Positions 16,893 to 31,357 of a stretch of DNA of 64,000 bases are shown here, piece by piece. The stretch covers positions 69,300 through 133,299 of the forward strand of contig JAJVHZ010000026.1 in NCBI GenBank assembly GCA_022072255.1. Direction: 5' to 3'. The notes beneath the pieces are model-generated. The model saw nothing but the letters and a program-made list of their open reading frames with translations, was not told the DNA's origin and ran no database searches. Numbering within the stretch: the first letter of the stretch is position 1; each line of letters opens with the position of its first letter. The translations under genes and the position numbers were made by a program. The DNA comes from Gammaproteobacteria bacterium. GTDB taxonomy: Bacteria > Pseudomonadota > Gammaproteobacteria > JAJPIJ01.

Positions 16893-17645
16893 ATGAATGA
16901 CGACAGCTTGACGATCATCCGCCCTAAGACAGGGGCAGAACATCCCGATCCGTGGGCCGAGGTCCCGTTCGAGCCGGCGTTTTTTTCTCCGGGTACGCGC
17001 CTGCTGCCGTCCCTGCCGGTCACCGGCTGGCGGCAACGGTATGCAGAGCACCTGGGCTTCCACGTCACGACCAGGAATCGCGACCTGCTCGCGCACGTGC
17101 GCCGCGTGCTGCTGTGGGCTGCAGCCGGCAACCGCCAGGCCACCTACCGCGCTCTCGCCGACCTCTTCCAGGTGCTGGGCACCAAGGGCCTGGAGTTGCG
17201 CAAGGATATCCTGCAGAGAGTGGCCCCCGTGCTGGCGCCCTCTCAGGTCAGCAGCCTGCGCGCGCAGTTGGCGGTGACCGAGACCGTCACCAGCATGTTC
17301 GACCTGCCCACCTCGCGCTTTGCGCCGAAACGCTCCGCCAAGCTGGTCACCCTGGGTGCCCGCGCGAACCGGATCCAGAGCGGCGCACGGGGGCCGCTCG
17401 GCGAGGCACGCGAATACCTGGAGAACGGGCAGGTCGAGGAGGCCAGACAGGTCCTCGAGGCTGCCCTGCCCCTGCACGCGCACGACACCGACATGCACCG
17501 CGAACTCCTGGAAATCTACCGGCGGGCGCGCGACCTCGACGGCTGCCAGTCGATGTTCAGCAAGATCGATGTCAAGGACAGCGCTGTGGAGAAGGACTGG
17601 CTGGACACCCTTTCCCTGCTCGAGGGTTCTGCCGCGGGCCGATAA
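16893..17645 (+). CDS. TPR-containing protein with FimV C-terminal-like repeat region
   Basis: AAGGAGG SD at 16877-16883 ahead of ATG 16893; LGEAREYLENGQVEEARQVLEAALPLHAHDTDMHRELLEIYRRARDLDGCQSMFSKI reads as TPR helices similar to FimV. Confidence 0.6.
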   Translation: MNDDSLTIIRPKTGAEHPDPWAEVPFEPAFFSPGTRLLPSLPVTGWRQRYAEHLGFHVTTRNRDLLAHVRRVLLWAAAGNRQATYRALADLFQVLGTKGLELRKDILQRVAPVLAPSQVSSLRAQLAVTETVTSMFDLPTSRFAPKRSAKLVTLGARANRIQSGARGPLGEAREYLENGQVEEARQVLEAALPLHAHDTDMHRELLEIYRRARDLDGCQSMFSKIDVKDSAVEKDWLDTLSLLEGSAAGR

Positions 17646-17651
17646 CTGCCG

Positions 17652-18926
17652 TTGCCGTCCATGCCGACATCCACACCCATCCGCTTCGACCTCATCGGCG
17701 CCAACGATCGCACGCGCAACGCCCTGCAGATGGCGTTCGCCGGTCGTGCCAGGGGCAGTTGCGAGTTCGCCAACGGAGACGCGGCCGACGCGGTCATCGT
17801 CGACCTGGACGGGATCGGCGCGCGCACGGAATGGAGCAGGTACCGTCACCAGCATCCGCAGCGCCCGAGCGTGCTGCTGACGGTCAACGACTGCACCGTG
17901 CCGGAGACGGCGATCGTGCTCATCAAGCCGATACGCATCGAGGCCCTGCTGAGCGCCGTGGACGACGTCCGCCGCCGGATCGAGACCGGCGACATCGACG
18001 CCCCGGGGATCACGGTGCGGGCGACAACCGAGACGGTCGTTGGACCCGGCGGTCCGACGACCCGGATCACGGCCACGACTCGCCCCTCCAAGCGCGAAGC
18101 GACAGCGACCTCGCAACCCACCAGCGGCTCGCAGGGTCGCCGGGCAGTCGCTGCCTCGTCGTCGGCTGCGGCGTATCCCGCGCCGTCGAAACCCGCCCCA
18201 CCGTCGGGGCCAGAACCCGTAAGGGATTACCGCGACGTATGCGGCCATCTCCCGGATATCAACTGCGAGGACCTCGAGCAGGTCCGACAACGCTCCTTCG
18301 ATGCCGAGGGAACGCTGCTCGACTGGCTGCGCCGTGCTCAGATCCGCTCCGACAATATGCGCAAGCCGATCGGCCTGAACATACAGGACAAGGACGTGGC
18401 CACCGTCTCCAGCGTGGAGCGCGTAGCCAGGGTGATCCTGAGCGACGAGATACTGAGGAGCAACGCCGCCAAGCGATTCATTGCGAGCCAGGTGCGCATG
18501 ACGGAGATTGCCTCCGACCCGCCGCCGGCCACGCAAAAACTCGCCGAACCCGTGAGTCTCGAGGCACTGCTCTGGAAGATGGCGCTGTGGACGTACAAGG
18601 GGCGTCTGCCCGCGGGAACCTCCGTCAAGGAGCGGGTGTACCTGCGGCGCTGGCCCAACCTGCCGCGTCTGCTCGAGGTCCCGGATGCCATGCGGATCTC
18701 CGCCCTGCTGGTCGAACAGCCGCTCGCCCTCGCGCGCGTGGCCGAGGCGCTGCAGATCCCGCAACGCCACGTCTTCGCGTTCTATGGCGCGGCACAGGCG
18801 GCGGGCCTCGCGAACCACGCCAAGCGCGAGGCGGACAATCTGCTTGCCAGCGTGCCGCCGCGCAAACACGTGGAGCGTAGTTTCATCAATCGCGTCGTCG
18901 GCCGCCTGAAGCGGCTGGTGGCCTGA
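17652..18926 (+). CDS. Receiver-like N-terminal domain plus C-terminal winged-helix-like protein, function unknown
   Basis: N-terminus RFDLIGANDRTRNALQMAF...AVIVDLDG...VLLTVND...VLIKPIR resembles a receiver fold (Asp and Lys positions); C-terminal MRISALLVEQPLALARVAEALQIPQRHVFAFYGAAQAAGLA resembles a helix-turn-helix. Confidence 0.6.
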   Translation: MPSMPTSTPIRFDLIGANDRTRNALQMAFAGRARGSCEFANGDAADAVIVDLDGIGARTEWSRYRHQHPQRPSVLLTVNDCTVPETAIVLIKPIRIEALLSAVDDVRRRIETGDIDAPGITVRATTETVVGPGGPTTRITATTRPSKREATATSQPTSGSQGRRAVAASSSAAAYPAPSKPAPPSGPEPVRDYRDVCGHLPDINCEDLEQVRQRSFDAEGTLLDWLRRAQIRSDNMRKPIGLNIQDKDVATVSSVERVARVILSDEILRSNAAKRFIASQVRMTEIASDPPPATQKLAEPVSLEALLWKMALWTYKGRLPAGTSVKERVYLRRWPNLPRLLEVPDAMRISALLVEQPLALARVAEALQIPQRHVFAFYGAAQAAGLANHAKREADNLLASVPPRKHVERSFINRVVGRLKRLVA

Positions 18927-18947: not shown

Positions 18948-20450
18948 ATGACGGGCTCTACACTGCCTATCGGCTTCAACTTGAAGGAGTACCGAATCGA
19001 CAAGGTGCTCGGCAAGGGCAACTTCGGAGTCACCTATCAGGGCTGGGACACCCACCTGCAGACGGCGGTGGCCATCAAGGAATTCTATCCGAGCGAGTTC
19101 GTCACCCGTGACCCGAAAGGCGGCGGCAGCGTGCTGCTGAAATCGGAGGAATTCAGCGAGCTGTACAAATGGGGCCGGCAGCGCTTCATCGCAGAGGCGC
19201 AGGTGCTCGCCCGGTTCCGGCACCCCAACATCCTGCGCGTGGCGCGATTCTTCCCGGCCAACCACACCGCCTACATCGTCATGGACTTCGAGGGTGGGCA
19301 GACTCTGAGCGAGGTATTGCGCGCGGCAAAGGAGCCCCTCTCCGAGCAGCAGTTGCGCGCCATCTTCCTGCCCCTGCTGGAAGGGCTGCGCATCGTCCAC
19401 GAGAAGAAATACCTGCATCGCGACATCAAGCCCGCGAACATCCAGATCCGTCATGACGGCACGCCGCTGCTGATCGATTTCGGGGCCGCCGAAATGGAAT
19501 TCGGGAGCAGCAGCTCGGAGGACGTGCAGGTGCTCACGCCGGGCTATGCCCCGATCGAGCAGCACTCCCCCGACACCCCGCAGGGACCATGGTCGGATCT
19601 CTACGCCGTCGGCGCGACGCTATATCGCTGCATCAGCGTCGGTCCGCCGGTCGACGCGGCGCAACGCCAGCGAGCTGCCGAGGAGCACAAGACCGACCCG
19701 CTGGTGCCCGCCGTCACGCTCGGCAACGAGCGGTACAGTGACAAATTCCTGCGGATCATCGACTGGATGATGCAGCTTCGCGCAGAGGACCGCCCGCAGT
19801 CGGTCGGCGACGTGATCGCTCGCCTGCGCGGGGAAGGCGAGGCCCCCGCCGTCACGGGCGGCACCACGTTTTCCTACGTTCCGAAGCGCGCCGCCCGCAA
19901 CTTCAAGATCGTGTTCGCCGGCCCTGTCGGTGCGGGCAAGACGACCGCGATATCGGCGCTCAGCGACATACCGCTGGTCAACACCGATGCTCGGGCGCGG
20001 GACATGACCCGCAGCCGCAAGGCCACCACGACCGTGGCGATGGATTACGGACTGATGCGTTTGTCGGACTCCGAGCGCGTGCACCTGTACGGAACGCCCG
20101 GGCAGGAGCGATTCGATTTCATGTGGGACATCCTGCAGACAGGCGCGCTCGGACTGGTGATCCTCATCGACAACTCGCGCAAGGAGCCGATGAAGGATCT
20201 GGACTTCTATCTTGATGCCTTCCATTCGCTGATCCAGCGCAGCCGCGTTGTCATCGGCGTCAACTTCACCGGCGCCACACGCAGGCCCGATGTCGACGAC
20301 TATCACCGCCACCTGAGCGATGGGCAGCGCAGGCTTGCGATCAACGCGCCGATATTCCAGATCGATGCGCGCCGGCGCGGCGATGTGTCGATGCTGGTAC
20401 AGGCATTGCTCTTTTCAATCGACCCTGGCGTAAAGGACTATCATGTCTGA
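18948..20450 (+). CDS. Ser/Thr protein kinase fused to a small Ras-like GTPase domain (COG2229/MglA/CvnD-like)
   Basis: Kinase: YRIDKVLGKGNFGVTY, VAIKEF, YLHRDIKPANIQI, LLIDFGAAE, PGYAPIEQ. GTPase: FAGPVGAGKTTAISALSD (P-loop), HLYGTPGQERFDFMWDIL, VVIGVNFTGA. Confidence 0.88.
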   Translation: MTGSTLPIGFNLKEYRIDKVLGKGNFGVTYQGWDTHLQTAVAIKEFYPSEFVTRDPKGGGSVLLKSEEFSELYKWGRQRFIAEAQVLARFRHPNILRVARFFPANHTAYIVMDFEGGQTLSEVLRAAKEPLSEQQLRAIFLPLLEGLRIVHEKKYLHRDIKPANIQIRHDGTPLLIDFGAAEMEFGSSSSEDVQVLTPGYAPIEQHSPDTPQGPWSDLYAVGATLYRCISVGPPVDAAQRQRAAEEHKTDPLVPAVTLGNERYSDKFLRIIDWMMQLRAEDRPQSVGDVIARLRGEGEAPAVTGGTTFSYVPKRAARNFKIVFAGPVGAGKTTAISALSDIPLVNTDARARDMTRSRKATTTVAMDYGLMRLSDSERVHLYGTPGQERFDFMWDILQTGALGLVILIDNSRKEPMKDLDFYLDAFHSLIQRSRVVIGVNFTGATRRPDVDDYHRHLSDGQRRLAINAPIFQIDARRRGDVSMLVQALLFSIDPGVKDYHV

Positions 20451-21562: not shown

Positions 21563-22789
21563 ATGGCCGTATTGAGAGTTGGGATTGGACACGCAAAGAC
21601 CGCACGCGAGGCCGCCGAGACGGCGATGCAGAAGACGCCGAAGCCGGACCTCACGATCGCCTTCAGCGCCTTTGGCAAGGACCCGAAGGAGAGCTATGAC
21701 GCCATCCGCTCGGTAGTCGGCAATTCCGCGATTATCGGCGGGACCTCCTGCGGGGAGATCACCAGCGCCCTGCAGGGGCCGCAGAACGACTCCGTTGCGG
21801 TGATGACGCTACAGAGTTCCTATCTCAGCATCGGGGTGGGAGTGGGCGAGAACCTCTCGACCGATCCGAAGGCGGCCGCCGAGCAGGCTGCCGCCGGCGC
21901 GCACAAATCGCTCAAGTCCAACCCCACGGTCATGTCGCTGATGGCCATCGCCCTCGACGGCAAGAACGCCTCCGAGGCCTCGCGCCTGAAGCCTTTCGTC
22001 AACGTCATCATCCCCGACGGCTCCACGGCGCAGGAGGAGCCCTTCATGCGCGCGCTCATCAAGGAGACCGGCACGGTGGCGCAGATCGTCGGCGGCTCCA
22101 CGGCCCACGACTTCAATGCCAGCACGACCTTCCAGTTCGGCAATGGCGTCTACCAGAACTCCGCGGTGCTGGCGACCATAAGCAGCGGACTCAAACTCGG
22201 GACCGCGATGGGGCATCCCTATTTCCCCGGCACCAAGGGCGGGGTCGTTACCCGCTCGCAGGGGCGCACCGTCTACGAGTTGAACAGGCGCCCGGCCACC
22301 GAAGTTGTCAAGGAGATGCTCGGCATCAACGAGCTCAGCGGCGAGGTGTTCGCCAAGAACCCCTTCGGCATCAAGTCCTCGGACGTCTTCGCGGAGTACA
22401 CGGTCAAGAGCGTCGCCCAGCACGGCGAGGACGGCAGCCTCACTTTCTTCGCCGAGATCCCGGAGGGCGCCTACCTCCGTCACATGCAGACCGACCGCAA
22501 TTTCGCCATCGCCAGCTTCAAGAGCACGCTGCAAAAGGCTGTCAACGACGCCGGCAGCCCGAAAAAGGTGGGCGCCGTGGTCATCTTCAACTGCATACTG
22601 CGCCACCTGCTGAAAACGCGCATGGACGTGTGCGATACCAGCATCATCAGGGAGACCTTCGGCGAGGACGTGCCGGTCATCGGGTTCAACACCTTCGGCG
22701 AGCAGGGCATCACGCTGGGCGGAGCCGTCGGGCATTACAATCAAACCGCGACCGTTCTGGTCATCGGCGACGAACTGATTTCCCAGTAA
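21563..22789 (+). CDS. FIST N-/C-domain sensory protein
   Basis: Start MAVLRVGIGHAKTAREAAETAMQK; SAIIGGTSCGEI; IVGGSTAHDFNAS; PVIGFNTFGEQGITLGGAVGHYNQTATVLVIGDEL. Confidence 0.85.
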   Translation: MAVLRVGIGHAKTAREAAETAMQKTPKPDLTIAFSAFGKDPKESYDAIRSVVGNSAIIGGTSCGEITSALQGPQNDSVAVMTLQSSYLSIGVGVGENLSTDPKAAAEQAAAGAHKSLKSNPTVMSLMAIALDGKNASEASRLKPFVNVIIPDGSTAQEEPFMRALIKETGTVAQIVGGSTAHDFNASTTFQFGNGVYQNSAVLATISSGLKLGTAMGHPYFPGTKGGVVTRSQGRTVYELNRRPATEVVKEMLGINELSGEVFAKNPFGIKSSDVFAEYTVKSVAQHGEDGSLTFFAEIPEGAYLRHMQTDRNFAIASFKSTLQKAVNDAGSPKKVGAVVIFNCILRHLLKTRMDVCDTSIIRETFGEDVPVIGFNTFGEQGITLGGAVGHYNQTATVLVIGDELISQ

Positions 22790-24000: not shown

Positions 24001-24077
24001 CGGGGTATAGCTCAGCCTGGTAGAGCGTCTGCTTCGGGAGCAGAAGGTCGCACGTTCGAATCGTGTTACCCCGACCA
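24001..24077 (+). tRNA. tRNA-Pro(CGG)
   Basis: Acceptor CGGGGTA/TACCCCG, anticodon arm TCTGC-TTCGGGA-GCAGA, T arm TTCGAAT, encoded CCA. Confidence 0.96.
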
Positions 24078-24521: not shown

Positions 24522-25160
24522 ATGCGACTCGCCGTTTCCGCACTGACCATCACCATTACCTGTACGGCATCGTTCGCGACCAGGGCGGCTGTATGGGCGG
24601 AACCCTCGGGAGGCGACCTGTTCTCCAACGACGGCCTGAATCCGACGCTGGTCACCCTCGACGCGGGCGTGAACACGATACGCGGCACCACAGGCTTCAC
24701 CAACGTCGTCGATCGCGATTACTTCTATTTCACGCTCGGCGCCGGACAGCAACTCGACTCCATCTTTCTGCGGCCGGTAACGGAGGTGGGCAGCCAGGTG
24801 TCTTTCATCGGCGTGCAGTCCGGCAATCAGCTCACGGTCAATCCGACTGGCGGCAACCCCGCCGGGCTCCTGGGCTACGCGCTCTACAGTCTGGGCCAGA
24901 TCGACACGAACATACTCGACGACATCGGCAACAACATGCTGCATCCCGGCACGACCGGATTTTCCGGCCCGCTCGGGCCCGGAACCTATGCATTCTGGGT
25001 ACAGGACACCGCCTTCGGCACCTTCAACTACAACTACGAGTTCAATGTCTCGGGTGACCCGATCCCCACACCGCTGCCCGGCGCGTATCTGGCCATGCTC
25101 GGCGGTATGGGCGTGCTGGGTCTCCTGCGCCGCCGACGCGACGGTTCGCAACCCCGGTAG
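24522..25160 (+). CDS. Exported protein with a PEP-CTERM-like sorting tail
   Basis: Signal peptide MRLAVSALTITITCTASFATRAA; C-terminal PIPTPLPGAYLAMLGGMGVLGLLRRRRDG. Confidence 0.75.
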   Translation: MRLAVSALTITITCTASFATRAAVWAEPSGGDLFSNDGLNPTLVTLDAGVNTIRGTTGFTNVVDRDYFYFTLGAGQQLDSIFLRPVTEVGSQVSFIGVQSGNQLTVNPTGGNPAGLLGYALYSLGQIDTNILDDIGNNMLHPGTTGFSGPLGPGTYAFWVQDTAFGTFNYNYEFNVSGDPIPTPLPGAYLAMLGGMGVLGLLRRRRDGSQPR

Positions 25161-25325: not shown

Positions 25326-25371
25326 TCCGGCGAATGGTGCGGATGAGATGCGGTCAGGTCCTGGGCACTGC

Positions 25372-26031
25372 TCAGGCGGCGGCTCGTCGCCGACGCGCAG
25401 TGCTCATCAGGCCGGCGAGCGCGCCGCCCAACAGCCAGACTGCGGCCGGCAGCGGCACTGCCGCGGGCTGGATGTCATAGGACAGGTTGTCCAGCAGAAA
25501 GTACAGGCCATTGCTGCCGCCGGCGGTCGGCAGGAAGCGCAACTCGTCGACGACCCCGAACGCCGAGAAATCGAAGAGATCGTATTTGTCGTTCGCGAGG
25601 GCAACCGTCTGCGAACCCATCTCGACGCCGTTGTTGAAACCCTTAACCTGGACGCCGCCGGCCGACGCGCCGTAGGCCGCGTTGAACCCGGAAAACGACG
25701 TCAGATAGACGGTGTTGAAGGTGAAGTCTTCCGCGCGCTTGATGATGAGCTCCGCATTGGTATAGATCGCATTGGCGCCCGACGGGGCCCCGTAGCTGTT
25801 TCCGAACCCCGTGGTGCCGTCCATGTAGTCGGCATTCTGCATCGTCGCAGGTATCGCCGGACTGGACTCCCAGTCGAATCCGCCGTAGCCGACCGGCACG
25901 GCCTGGTCGGAGGTTGCCGGCAGGATATCGTCAAAATCGAGGATTGCCGCGCCCCCGACAGGGGCATATGCCAGCCCCAGGCCGGCAACCAATGCAAAAA
26001 CCGTATTGCTCTGTTTCATTGCTGTCCTCAT
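25372..26031 (-). CDS. Exported protein with a VPLPA-CTERM sorting signal
   Basis: Start MRTAMKQSNTVFALVAGLGLAYAPVGGAA (ORF track start 26307 too far upstream); C-terminus AAVPLPAAVWLLGGALAGLMSTARRRRAAA. Confidence 0.85.
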   Translation of the reverse strand: MRTAMKQSNTVFALVAGLGLAYAPVGGAAILDFDDILPATSDQAVPVGYGGFDWESSPAIPATMQNADYMDGTTGFGNSYGAPSGANAIYTNAELIIKRAEDFTFNTVYLTSFSGFNAAYGASAGGVQVKGFNNGVEMGSQTVALANDKYDLFDFSAFGVVDELRFLPTAGGSNGLYFLLDNLSYDIQPAAVPLPAAVWLLGGALAGLMSTARRRRAAA

Positions 26032-26638
26032 CTCTCTGCTCCAGTTCGCCATGGATTCCCGATGGATTGCCGGTTCCGCGTTGCGCCTGTACGGCTTCAA
26101 TCGCAACGGCTCTTCAACGCCGTGCACGGACCGGCACCACAAACGACCTCCAAGGCAACTGTAATTCGACGACCGGCATGCCGATGCACAATTCGTCACA
26201 CTAACGGCTGTCAAAAACTGGTCGTACCAACACGCTGAGGCGGCTCGCTGGTCACCACTTCCGAAGGACACGGCAGCAGGCGAGGCGCGTGCGACTGCAA
26301 GCGGCAATCAGGCGCATGAGGACCCGTGGCGCACTGCCACGTCGATTCCGCGATCCTCAATCTTGCGGCGGTTTCTTGACGCGCTTTTTCGAGACAATCG
26401 TCAACATAGGCCAGTGCGCCTGCCACTAACCTCTCTGTCCGAAGTGGACGGCGATGCCGCGACGCGCCGACGGAAACACAGTCGACTGCCCGTCACGTGC
26501 GTGGCCGCCTCGTGGCGGACGCCGGGCGCGCGAACGTCCGGGTGGGCGGCGCGGCGCGGGAACACGAGTCCCTACTTTCATATTCTGGAGAACCAAGATC
26601 TACCGACAGAACCCAGATCTACCGACAAGGATTGAATC

Positions 26639-28585
26639 ATGCGAGAGACTGACAACCACCGAACTACACATAGGCCATTGTCGTTCAACGGCGAATCCGC
26701 AGCGACGATCCGTCTTGGCGCCTCCTGTCGGCGCGCGACGCCCGTCATTCTGCCCCTGCTCGCCATCGCGCTTGCGCTGCTCCCGGCGCTCGCGCAAGCG
26801 CAGAGCGTTCCGCCAAGGCGGATCGTCGCACCGCCGCCGCCCCCGCCGCCACGCCCGACGCTCCCCGGCCTGCTGACCGGGCTGCCCTCGGTCAACGACG
26901 CGACCTGGGATGAGACGGCCGTTCGCAAGGTGCTGCAGATCTTCGCCTTCGGCGGACTTGCACGGGACTCGCAGATCACGGCCTGGGCGAACATGAAGCC
27001 CGCGGACGCGATCAAGCAGATGCTGACGCTGGGCACGACGAACAATCTCCTCTCGCCCTCGGAGGGCACGGCCTTCGGCGATGGCACGCTCACCGGTGTG
27101 AGCGCCTTTCTCTCGGGCGCATCCAGTCCGATACCAGACACCGACTACCGCACCGAGTTCGAACAGGATGCCTACAACGGGTCGAACTTCACGTGGATGT
27201 ACGCGGCGACGTTGCGCGGCCTGAACCCGTTCCGCCAGAAGATGGGGCTGTTCGAAACCAACTATCACATGGCGGTGCACCGGCGGAATCTCAGCAGCGA
27301 ACAGCTATTCGCCTACTACGACCGGGTCATGAGCGCACTGGCCGCCTCCCCGACCAACGGCTACGAGACGGTGATGACGACCGCCGCCCTGTCCGCGGCC
27401 GTCGCCCGCCAATACGGCCATGACGATGCGCGGTTCAATCGATCGACGGGCGAGTGCAACTGCAACGAGGACTTCGCCCGCGAATACCATCAACTGTTCT
27501 TCGGCATACTGGCCCTCAACGAACCCGACTACCACGAAAACACCACGATCAAGAACACGGCCAAGGCGCTGACGGACATGAACCTGTACCACCCCGGGTT
27601 CACGCCCAGCACGGACCCGGAGCCATGGGCGGGGCAGGACGTGCAGTATCAGTCCGATCAGCACCCCGCCGGCACGCTCGACATCCTGCACAACGCCAAC
27701 ACCGGCACCAACGCGCAGCAACGATTCCTCAACCAGGCCGCCGCGCAGATCAATCACCCGGAGAGCCTGGACACGCTGCCGGTGATGATTGTGGAGGTGC
27801 TGGCGGACGACAACCTGTCGAACGCGAAAAAGGCTGCGCTGCGCCAGGCATGGAGATCGATGGCACGCAAGGACATACTCCTGTACGTACAGGCCTACGC
27901 CATCTCCACCCTGTTCCACGACCCGGCACGGATCAAGTATCTCAACAGCTTCGACCGGCACCTGAACATCGCCAACAAGACAGCCCTAAGCAACAGCGAG
28001 CAGTACGCCGAATGGCCCCGCACCCGATGGCTGAACGACTTCGATCAGCAGCGGCCGTTCGAACCCATGCACGAGGTCTTCGGCGGCCAGACCGGCGAGG
28101 AGACTTCCAAGAGCGCCTATCTGTTCCAGTCCAACTACGACAACGCCACCGAGAACGGCGGCAGGAACACCGGCTACACCCTGACGCGGCACGGGCTCAG
28201 CCTGACACGCAACTGGGCGGCCGTGGTGCCGGCCACCAACGGCACCTACCCAGTACGTTCGGTCGCGGAGTGGCTGTGGCAGCGTTACGTTTCGGACGGC
28301 GGCAGGAATCTCGGGCCGCTCGAGCGCGCGCATCTCTACGCCCTGCTGGCGACTGGCAATGACCTCGCTTACGCCGTGGCGACCGCGAATCCCGATCGCG
28401 TCATCTCGGCCAGTGACCTGACCACCGACGCCACGCTAGCAACCGCCGTGAATGGATTCTCCACATCGCTGATGAACTTGAACAGCACGGTCGTCAACGA
28501 CCGAACCGAGGCGAACCGGCGCGTGGGACAGGCCATCAACTTCATCCTTGCCACACCGTTCATGCTTGCGCAGGAGGGACGATAA
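26639..28585 (+). CDS. DUF1800 family exported protein
   Basis: Signal peptide, PPPPPPPRP linker, MGLFETNYHMAVHRRNLSSEQLFAYYDRVMSAL...NCNEDFAREYHQLFFGI; next gene is a DUF1501 protein. Confidence 0.8.
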   Translation: MRETDNHRTTHRPLSFNGESAATIRLGASCRRATPVILPLLAIALALLPALAQAQSVPPRRIVAPPPPPPPRPTLPGLLTGLPSVNDATWDETAVRKVLQIFAFGGLARDSQITAWANMKPADAIKQMLTLGTTNNLLSPSEGTAFGDGTLTGVSAFLSGASSPIPDTDYRTEFEQDAYNGSNFTWMYAATLRGLNPFRQKMGLFETNYHMAVHRRNLSSEQLFAYYDRVMSALAASPTNGYETVMTTAALSAAVARQYGHDDARFNRSTGECNCNEDFAREYHQLFFGILALNEPDYHENTTIKNTAKALTDMNLYHPGFTPSTDPEPWAGQDVQYQSDQHPAGTLDILHNANTGTNAQQRFLNQAAAQINHPESLDTLPVMIVEVLADDNLSNAKKAALRQAWRSMARKDILLYVQAYAISTLFHDPARIKYLNSFDRHLNIANKTALSNSEQYAEWPRTRWLNDFDQQRPFEPMHEVFGGQTGEETSKSAYLFQSNYDNATENGGRNTGYTLTRHGLSLTRNWAAVVPATNGTYPVRSVAEWLWQRYVSDGGRNLGPLERAHLYALLATGNDLAYAVATANPDRVISASDLTTDATLATAVNGFSTSLMNLNSTVVNDRTEANRRVGQAINFILATPFMLAQEGR

Positions 28586-28587
28586 TC

Positions 28588-30033
28588 ATGAAACGCCGGA
28601 TAAACGACATCGCAAGCCTGAATTCGCGCCGGGATTTCCTCAAGCGCAGCATCGCCCTCGGTCTGATCGCAGGGACTGGCACGTTGTTCGACAGCCGGTC
28701 CGCGCTTGCAGCCGGCAACCAGAACGTGACCCAACGCGTACTGGCCAACATCTTTCTCGGGGGCGGGCCGGATCTGCGCCATGCCTTCGTGCCACCTTTC
28801 AGCACGGTCACCACCAATGTCGGTTACGCCTATTGGAAGAACAAGGCCACTTCGCATTCCATCGCCAATGACAACACCTCGCTCAATAACCGCTGGATCA
28901 ACGACTTCTTTGCGGTGAGTTCGGGCAGCACGCAGTTCGGCATACTAAAGCGATGTGGATGGCTGAAAACGATGTGGGACCAAGGCAACGTCGCCTTCGT
29001 ATGCAACGTCTTCGGATCGGATTCCCGCGATCACGACCAGGCCACCACCGTCATGGAATTGGGCGATACCACTGCGCCGAAATCCGCCTTCGGTTCGGGA
29101 TGGGGCGGGCGGCTCGCCTACGCGGCGCGCGGCAATGTGCTCGCGGTTTCCGGCTATCCGCGCGCCTTCAGCTTCGGTCCCGACCCGGCGGCGCCCAATG
29201 ACCTCAAGAAGAACAGCGATCAGAACGTCATCATCGCCAGTAACATGCGCGACTACGGTCTGTATGACGCGCCGCGAGGCGTTGGCAGCGTCGGCAGAAA
29301 TGAACGTGTCGCACGGGCCCTGCGCAGCTATTACGCCGGCAAACGACCGACGATAGCGGGCAGCTCTCCCTATTCACGCTTCTTCGACACGGAGGAGAAG
29401 CTGCGAAATTTCGGCGATCAGATCGAGGCGCGCCTGGCCGCATTTCCGCAGCCCGAGGATTTGCAGACCTGGATCGAGAACTCCGCCTACGGCTGGTACC
29501 TGGGCATGCAACTGCGCAACCTCCACGACGCGCTGGCCTGCAGCGACATCGTCAACCTGCGCGTGGCCTCGATGGAGTTCAATGGCTGGGACAGCCACAA
29601 TAACCAGCGCAACGAGATCGAGGGCAATCTCGAGGCACTCTTCGGGGACGGCCAGGGCCTGGACCTGCTGTACCGGAATCTCTCCCCGAGCGCGCAACAG
29701 AACCTCGTGTTCGTGCTCGATGGCGAGTTCGGGCGCCAGATCCGCTCCAACGGCGGCAACGGAACGGACCACGGCGAGGGGAATTACGTCATCCTGATCG
29801 GCAACTCGGTCAACGGCGGCGTGTACGGAAACATGTTCCCGCAGCGCGAGGTCGACATCCTTGCGCAGCCGAACCGCTACTACAATCCGGACATCCAGGG
29901 GCTGACGGCGATCGACCACGTCTTCGGCCGTGCGTGCGACTGGGTGAGCCCGGGGTCCAAGAGCGCGGTATTCCCGCAGTTTGCCGGCAAGCCGATCGAG
30001 ACCGGGCTCAACCTGACGGGACTATTCGCCTAG
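28588..30033 (+). CDS. DUF1501 family protein with a Tat-type signal
   Basis: SRRDFLKRSIALGLIAGTGTLFDSRSALA twin-arginine signal; NIFLGGGPDLRHAFVPPF, VFVLDGEFGRQIRSNGGNGTDHGEGNYVILIG. Confidence 0.85.
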   Translation: MKRRINDIASLNSRRDFLKRSIALGLIAGTGTLFDSRSALAAGNQNVTQRVLANIFLGGGPDLRHAFVPPFSTVTTNVGYAYWKNKATSHSIANDNTSLNNRWINDFFAVSSGSTQFGILKRCGWLKTMWDQGNVAFVCNVFGSDSRDHDQATTVMELGDTTAPKSAFGSGWGGRLAYAARGNVLAVSGYPRAFSFGPDPAAPNDLKKNSDQNVIIASNMRDYGLYDAPRGVGSVGRNERVARALRSYYAGKRPTIAGSSPYSRFFDTEEKLRNFGDQIEARLAAFPQPEDLQTWIENSAYGWYLGMQLRNLHDALACSDIVNLRVASMEFNGWDSHNNQRNEIEGNLEALFGDGQGLDLLYRNLSPSAQQNLVFVLDGEFGRQIRSNGGNGTDHGEGNYVILIGNSVNGGVYGNMFPQREVDILAQPNRYYNPDIQGLTAIDHVFGRACDWVSPGSKSAVFPQFAGKPIETGLNLTGLFA

Positions 30034-30061
30034 GGGTTGTCCAGCAACGTCGGCGTCAACA

Positions 30062-30086
30062 CCCGGCCGCCGCGAGGGCGGCCGGG
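30062..30086. terminator. Terminator-like hairpin between convergent genes
   Basis: CCCGGCCGCC-GCGAG-GGCGGCCGGG perfect 10-bp stem; no T tract. Confidence 0.5.
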
Positions 30087-30169
30087 ACGCGCCATTGGCG
30101 CGCAACGAAATATCGATCGGTAACCGGTGTCCGTCTGCTTCCCGCTCCCGGACGTCAGGCCGGGCAGCC

Positions 30170-31357
30170 CTACTGCAGGCTGGCGCGGCGGTCCGGCGGG
30201 AGGAAATTGGCGCGCCGGAACCCGAGCTTCTCGGCCTCCTGCACCGTGCGCGCATAGCACTCGCCGCGCAGCGGCTCCACGCGCACGTCGTCGTAGCGAT
30301 CGTCGAATGGAAGATGGTACATCCGCTCCCGCGTGCGTTCGTCGATGCGGCACTTGATGACAGGGAAGTTCACGTTCAGTCTGAAATTCTCCTTCACCTC
30401 CACCTTCAGTCGCGCGGCCGCCTCGCGCGCCAGGTCGCTCAGACGTGTGTTGGTGATGAATCGCGGCACGATCCTGGGCGGGAACAGCTTGTCCTCGCTG
30501 AGCCGGATGCTGAGCATCTGCACGGTGCCATAAAGATTGAGGATGTGGCGCTCGTGTATCAGCTTGTCCGATGCCCAGCAGCGCGCGTGCACGACGTGGA
30601 TGATGTCGTCCTTGCAGCAGATGAGATCCTCCGACAGCCCCTTCACGCCCGCGGCGACGGGCTGATAACGCACTTCCCAGCCCTCCCGCTCGTACAGATA
30701 CCCGATGTAGCGGTCGTACAGCATCCCAATCGCCGCCGGCGTCAGACCCTGGCGCATGAAGCGATCGAGAGCAAGCTGGTCGCGCTCGACGCTCGAGAGC
30801 TGCCGGTATTCATCGCTGCTGAGCAGCCTCTGCACCGGGTCCCGGCCCTCCGGCGCGCGCGGCAGCAACTGGACCGCCTCGTTGAGTATGGTGTTCTCGT
30901 AATCCTCCAGAAACGGAAAGTACTCCTTGTAACTGGCGAGCTGGTACTCGAGGTATTTCAGCCTGTCCTTGAGCATCCTGCGCTCGGCCTGCACGCGGGC
31001 CAGCTCCACATCGCCAGACTGCACGTCCCGGCGCCGGCCGCGCAACTGGACGGCGACCACGTCGTCCATGGCCTTGTCGGCCTCGGCAATCAGGTGGGTG
31101 AGCCAGCGGCGGCCATTGATGTAGCCTTCCTGGAAGGACTGTCGCGTCTGGTCGAGCAGGCGCTCGCGGGCCTTGAGTTCGAGCGCGAGCAGGTCGAATT
31201 CGCGGCGGAAGGCCGCCTCCTGCCTGGCCAGGGACTCGCGCGTGCGGCGATTCTCGTCGCTCTCCTTCACCTCCACGGCCTTGCCGCGCATCCAGGCGTA
31301 GACGCCCACGCAAAGCAGCGCGAAGCACGCAATGGCTAGGTATCCCCACGGGTACAT
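30170..31357 (-). CDS. Membrane-anchored Mrr/restriction-endonuclease-like protein, possibly degenerate active site
   Basis: N-terminal TM MYPWGYLAIACFALLCVGVYAWM, long charged region, then IGYLYEREGWEVRYQPVAAGVKGLSEDLICCKDDIIHVVHARCWASDK. Start 31357 preferred to 31471. Confidence 0.65.
   Translation of the reverse strand: MYPWGYLAIACFALLCVGVYAWMRGKAVEVKESDENRRTRESLARQEAAFRREFDLLALELKARERLLDQTRQSFQEGYINGRRWLTHLIAEADKAMDDVVAVQLRGRRRDVQSGDVELARVQAERRMLKDRLKYLEYQLASYKEYFPFLEDYENTILNEAVQLLPRAPEGRDPVQRLLSSDEYRQLSSVERDQLALDRFMRQGLTPAAIGMLYDRYIGYLYEREGWEVRYQPVAAGVKGLSEDLICCKDDIIHVVHARCWASDKLIHERHILNLYGTVQMLSIRLSEDKLFPPRIVPRFITNTRLSDLAREAAARLKVEVKENFRLNVNFPVIKCRIDERTRERMYHLPFDDRYDDVRVEPLRGECYARTVQEAEKLGFRRANFLPPDRRASLQ

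Follow-up and report, generated by a model that had tools for sequence, protein, structure and literature searches.

To our knowledge, the MglA-type switches known in bacteria act via separate partner proteins. Group 3 MglA of beta- and gammaproteobacteria, with Snodgrassella, Neisseria and Xanthomonas as hosts, was described by Wuichet and Sogaard-Andersen (2014) as a single-domain GTPase marked by GTPGQ at G3, a deviant G4 and DAR at G5, with one or two MglB and an 'unknown protein' of receiver-like and winged-helix-like parts as neighbours (PMC4316618, available text). The same text gives GTPGQ as a hallmark of MglA Groups 2-5 and the deviant G4 as one of Groups 2 and 3. As far as the available description goes, the actinobacterial conservons (CvnA-D; Group 2 MglA) also combine a kinase-type component, a roadblock protein and an MglA-type GTPase with a deviant G4; their kinase-type component is a separately encoded, membrane histidine kinase-like protein, with no Hanks-type kinase and no fusion. 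Kinase and Ras-like G domain share one polypeptide in the Roco kinases (LRRK2) and in DAPK1, whilst the prokaryotic Roco proteins known so far lack a kinase (PMC6337361).

We analysed a 64,000-nucleotide stretch of a gammaproteobacterial genome (hereafter the window), in which one ORF encodes, as a single chain, a Hanks-type Ser/Thr kinase with its full set of motifs and, C-terminal to it, a Ras-like G domain (Table 1). Pfam Pkinase matched residues 15-284 (E 1.8e-36). This half carried the G-loop LGKGNFG, the VAIK lysine (K44), the alpha-C glutamate (E83), HRDIKPAN (D159, N164), DFG (D177) and the subdomain XI Arg of Hanks-type kinases. The nearest known protein in both sequence and fold was PpkA, a Ser/Thr kinase linked to type VI secretion (T6SS): it was the best PDB match (phmmer, E 1.8e-61; next match ~1e-20), was 38% identical over the kinase domain and headed the Foldseek matches (5hnv). 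In the window, the PpkA-like kinase is instead fused to a G domain, and no T6SS genes were recognised in the operon. Residues 320-436 gave weak Pfam matches to P-loop GTPase models, and this half contained GPVGAGKT at G1 (325-332), YGTPGQ at G3 (381-386), VNFTG at the G4 position (438-442) and DAR at G5 (473-475). The initial annotation had read a single kinase-GTPase polypeptide with these kinase motifs, P-loop, G3 and G4 sequences, and all were confirmed. It had also proposed domain modelling. The AlphaFold2 model, built from an alignment of 33 proteins of the window and the loci, shows the folds of a kinase and of a Ras-type G domain, joined by a short linker of lower confidence (mean pLDDT 83); the predicted packing of the two domains against each other (pTM 0.67) carries no information. 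A fold search against viral structures recovered generic kinases only.

Table 1 Features of the kinase-GTPase operon in the window (positions on the window; basis of each assignment).
Feature	Position	Strand	Basis
TPR-containing protein, first operon gene, start codon uncertain	16893..17645	+	weak TPR_16/TPR_19 matches
Putative pseudo-receiver and C-terminal winged-helix-like protein	17652..18926	+	conserved ends; description in PMC4316618 (available text)
Kinase-GTPase fusion	18948..20450	+	one ATG-started ORF, 500 aa
Hanks-type Ser/Thr kinase domain, PpkA-like, aa 15-290	18990..19817	+	Pfam; PDB PpkA; Foldseek PpkA 5hnv
Linker, aa 291-316	19818..19895	+	F-x-Y-x-P-[KR] in most fused homologues
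Group 3 MglA-like G domain, aa 317-500	19896..20447	+	G1, G3, G4, G5 motifs
G1	19920-19943	+	in G domain of fusion gene
G3 GTPGQ	20091-20105	+	in G domain of fusion gene
G4 NFTG	20262-20273	+	in G domain of fusion gene
G5 DAR	20364-20372	+	in G domain of fusion gene
Second MglB-like protein, 224 aa	20443..21117	+	homologue Robl_LC7 matches; CvnB5; AlphaFold2/Foldseek MglB
MglB-type roadblock/LC7 protein, 120 aa	21149..21511	+	Robl_LC7 E 1.3e-14
FIST_N/FIST_C sensor protein	21563..22789	+	Pfam; slot of PAS and phosphonate-binding-fold genes elsewhere

By its motifs, neighbours and taxonomy, the G domain is best assigned as a variant of Group 3 MglA, agreeing with most features of the published description. 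Shared with those systems are GTPGQ, the deviant G4, DAR and the one or two MglB, and a neighbouring gene has the described conserved ends and variable linker of the putative receiver/winged-helix-like protein (PMC4316618, available text). The closest homologue (92% identity) is gammaproteobacterial, in keeping with the beta/gamma host range, and relatives occurred in Rhodocyclaceae, Gallionellaceae, Methylococcaceae and Thiotrichaceae. In addition, a Thr of G2 (TTVA) substitutes for the intrinsic Arg finger, both Thr being invariant in the fused sequences. Group 3 MglA as published is a single-domain GTPase (PMC4316618, available text), whereas the window protein adds an N-terminal Ser/Thr kinase domain and loses the G4 Asp; because of the added kinase domain, we regard it as a variant rather than a plain member. 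These features bear out the likeness to MglA and CvnD-like GTPases suggested in the initial annotation. Its reading of atypical G3 and G4 motifs was accurate as to the motifs themselves, but GTPGQ and a deviant G4 had already been described for MglA groups, so these deviations are in themselves unsurprising (PMC4316618, available text).

The resemblance to Roco kinases and DAPK1 is one of architecture. Like DAPK1, the window protein places the kinase first, but its G domain is of the MglA type and it has no COR: the Roc score was 20 against a cut-off of 27, COR gave no match and the protein ends after the G domain. As prokaryotic Roco proteins known so far lack a kinase (PMC6337361), the window fusion is independent of the Roco kinases and represents a bacterial parallel to kinase-GTPase proteins of the LRRK2/DAPK1 type. 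The open literature yielded no description of a kinase-MglA fusion, a search result that does not prove its absence. The GTPase family is known; the fusion, together with the loss of the G4 Asp in most of the fused clade, appears new.

An assembly or sequencing artefact joining two adjacent genes can practically be dismissed. A metagenome-assembled genome (MAG) of the same genus (locus L039) encodes a fused homologue of the same length and 92% identity, and a further 11 distinct fused homologues (~49-60% identity) were found, giving 13 distinct fused sequences in total. They represent several genera: besides L039, the genome scan found them in Rhodocyclaceae, in Sideroxydans (Gallionellaceae) and in proteobacterial genomes without classification, and the total includes two genomes assembled as megabase contigs (G301 and G431), which a further genome search contributed. 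Kinase catalytic motifs were kept throughout, except for HLD in place of HRD in L015 and L048. The fusion is nevertheless rare: it was seen in 3/47 class-level genomes carrying the GTPase (G000, G008, G213), a count in which the kinase half was checked only where the locus was fetched. Standalone relatives of the GTPase occupied ~70 flanked loci in Methylococcaceae, Thiotrichaceae, Halothiobacillaceae and others, mostly at 50-62% identity. A kinase as a split neighbouring gene was sought at these ~70 loci and none adjoined the GTPase, apart from a single kinase match on the opposite strand (L079). Thus, neither a sequencing error nor a consistent two-gene arrangement in homologues, the two outcomes named in advance as fatal to the fusion, was borne out. 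Other domains fused to the GTPase were also considered for the long frames of L037, L149, L155, L160 and L163; these contained no domain-like sequence and appear to be stop-to-stop extensions upstream of a start codon adjacent to the P-loop.

All 13 fused sequences fell into one clade of the GTPase tree (support 95/93), together with two tandem GTPases that lack a kinase. The fused kinases likewise formed one clade in the kinase tree (95/93), with the same early branches. Since each tree gives a single fused clade, one fusion event is most likely, with both halves inherited together ever since. The two tandem kinase-less GTPases, inside the fused clade, follow the fused gene in L046 (7463-8017) and L047 (~1630-2160). 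In a pairwise comparison of the window with L039 (NG86), the kinase had a dN/dS of 0.11 and the GTPase one of 0.13, indicating purifying selection on both halves. Thirteen fused homologues, one clade and low dN/dS in both halves together argue that the fusion is no artefact. The junction coincides with the natural N terminus of the standalone GTPases, which begin just before the P-loop (MSxYKIIFTGPVGAGKT), and the linker motif F-x-Y-x-P-[KR] of most fused members was absent from the standalone proteins.

The operon order conserved in related loci was TPR protein, receiver/winged-helix-like protein, GTPase, second MglB-like protein and MglB. The fusion occupies the slot of the standalone GTPase, and because this slot holds a kinase-less GTPase in most relatives, the kinase is read from these comparisons as an addition to an older standalone GTPase. 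Many related loci have a homologue of the TPR protein at the corresponding position. The receiver/winged-helix-like protein had no Pfam match; across 124 homologues it showed two conserved ends joined by a variable linker. Its putative receiver part keeps the KP motif and lacks the acidic pair of true receivers, which makes phosphorylation on Asp improbable.

Two roadblock proteins follow. The smaller, with a conserved DG pair (TDGLMIAS), was the sole Robl_LC7 match above cut-off in the genome, and a genome search found one Group 3-like MglA system. The start of the gene for the larger one and the end of the fusion gene share 8 bases. Robl_LC7 was matched by 25/35 of its homologues, many of them weakly (best E 3.6e-4), and the best PDB match of its profile was CvnB5 (E 0.021), a further likeness to the conservons. 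A profile-profile comparison of the two roadblock proteins did not match them to each other, and the identity of the second was therefore settled by structure: its AlphaFold2 model (pLDDT 88) has a helical N-terminal part and a C-terminal roadblock fold, with MglB as the top Foldseek matches. Neither a histidine kinase-like CvnA nor a CvnC was recognised among the operon genes.

Downstream of the roadblock genes, PAS and phosphonate-binding-fold genes occurred in 52/55 standalone loci with enough downstream sequence. Among fused loci, three had both and two the phosphonate-binding gene alone, whilst FIST_N/FIST_C took this place in the window, L039 and L044. The 3' end of the operon therefore looks like an exchangeable sensor slot. 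Genes in this slot lie at 21563-22789 in the window, 8543-9783 in L040 and 7633-8880 in L049. The slot, whether PAS/phosphonate-binding or FIST, is not mentioned in the available text of PMC4316618 and appears new.

Within the fused clade, G4 changes further. The Asp at this motif reads guanine, and it was present in 3/13 fused sequences compared with 130/139 standalone ones, in which G4 is T[QRK]MD or similar. Two early branches of the fused clade have TRMD; the other eleven have NF[MTA]x, a single one of them having the Asp. Set against its retention in Group 3-like standalone proteins, the loss of this Asp in most fused members is an unusual feature. On the tree it maps to one event, from which no statistical link to the fusion can be drawn. 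Given this loss, it is uncertain whether GTP is bound at all, and the guanine specificity of the window G domain is a real question. The G domain of the fused clade might accordingly be seen as a degenerate, poorly guanine-specific pseudo-GTPase that docks the kinase on the roadblock proteins, as the replacement of T[QRK]MD by NFx, in most cases without the D, would suggest, along with Ala or Val at the G3 Thr in 5/11 fused sequences (this Thr is present in 96/98 standalone relatives). We consider this improbable, as the P-loop Lys, the G2 Thr pair, the catalytic Gln of PGQ and DAR are kept in all fused sequences, dN/dS of the GTPase half is low, and CvnD9 is an active GTPase belonging to Group 2, where the G4 Lys is often missing (PMC4316618, available text). 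Also unlikely is a reading in which, in this one-chain kinase-GTPase of an origin independent of LRRK2 and DAPK1, a roadblock-regulated MglA-type switch directly gates the Ser/Thr kinase and its G domain has lost guanine specificity, responding to another nucleotide or serving as a docking switch free of nucleotide.

We favour, with moderate confidence, a sensor- and roadblock-gated MglA-type switch with Ser/Thr phosphorylation as an output in cis. In this scheme the fusion gene is the centre of a signalling operon. A sensor, FIST in the window and PAS with the phosphonate-binding fold in other loci, would act with the two roadblock proteins to determine which nucleotide state the G domain adopts. 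This state would in turn control the covalently attached PpkA-like kinase, or present it to its substrate. The kinase would autophosphorylate and would probably also modify a partner from the operon, for instance the receiver/winged-helix-like or the TPR protein. Kinase activity, nucleotide binding, roadblock regulation, the direction of coupling and the substrates are all inferred. Coupling of phosphorylation to a GTP switch, as suggested in the initial annotation, is plausible given the fusion and the purifying selection on both halves. The linker of the receiver/winged-helix-like protein was considered as a substrate by its Ser/Thr content, which did not differ between fused and other systems (14% vs 13%) and so gave no hint that this protein is the substrate.

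Control could also run in reverse, with the kinase autophosphorylating the linker or the G domain and thereby setting the switch, whose output would be the G domain acting with the receiver/winged-helix-like protein, as proposed for conservons driven by histidine kinases. Conservons do pair a kinase-like sensor with a GTPase output (PMC4316618, available text), standalone systems work without a kinase, which would make the switch the old core, and several fused homologues have Thr-rich linkers (VTTTT, TTTT) immediately before the P-loop. The linker Thr positions are not conserved, however, and we judge this reading rather unlikely. If the favoured cis-output arrangement holds, this small soluble protein of 500 residues, encoded alongside its roadblock regulators, would offer a tractable system for studying how a Ras-like switch controls a kinase in cis, and phosphorylation would become an output that can be measured for Group 3 MglA systems, which are poorly studied.

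MglA systems elsewhere are linked to type IV pili. A link of the window system to these pili is possible by analogy, and the genome has PilT-family genes, three of them in tandem on contig C29 (28358-31665). The genome also had ~24 further kinase-like matches in all, and five same-strand Ser/Thr kinase matches lay within 20 kb on contig C51 (2388-21902). In the same bacterial family, a PpkA-like kinase (L120, 940-3246) has a nucleotide cyclase domain at its N terminus (Guanylate_cyc, E 4e-13). Elsewhere in the window, a tRNA gene (24001-24074) lies just before the gene of a small protein with a PEP-CTERM-like tail (24522-25160; PTPLPGAYLAMLGGMGVLGLLRRRR), and a run of plus-strand ORFs (25348-31339) has a single Pfam match, DUF1501, at 28588-30033.
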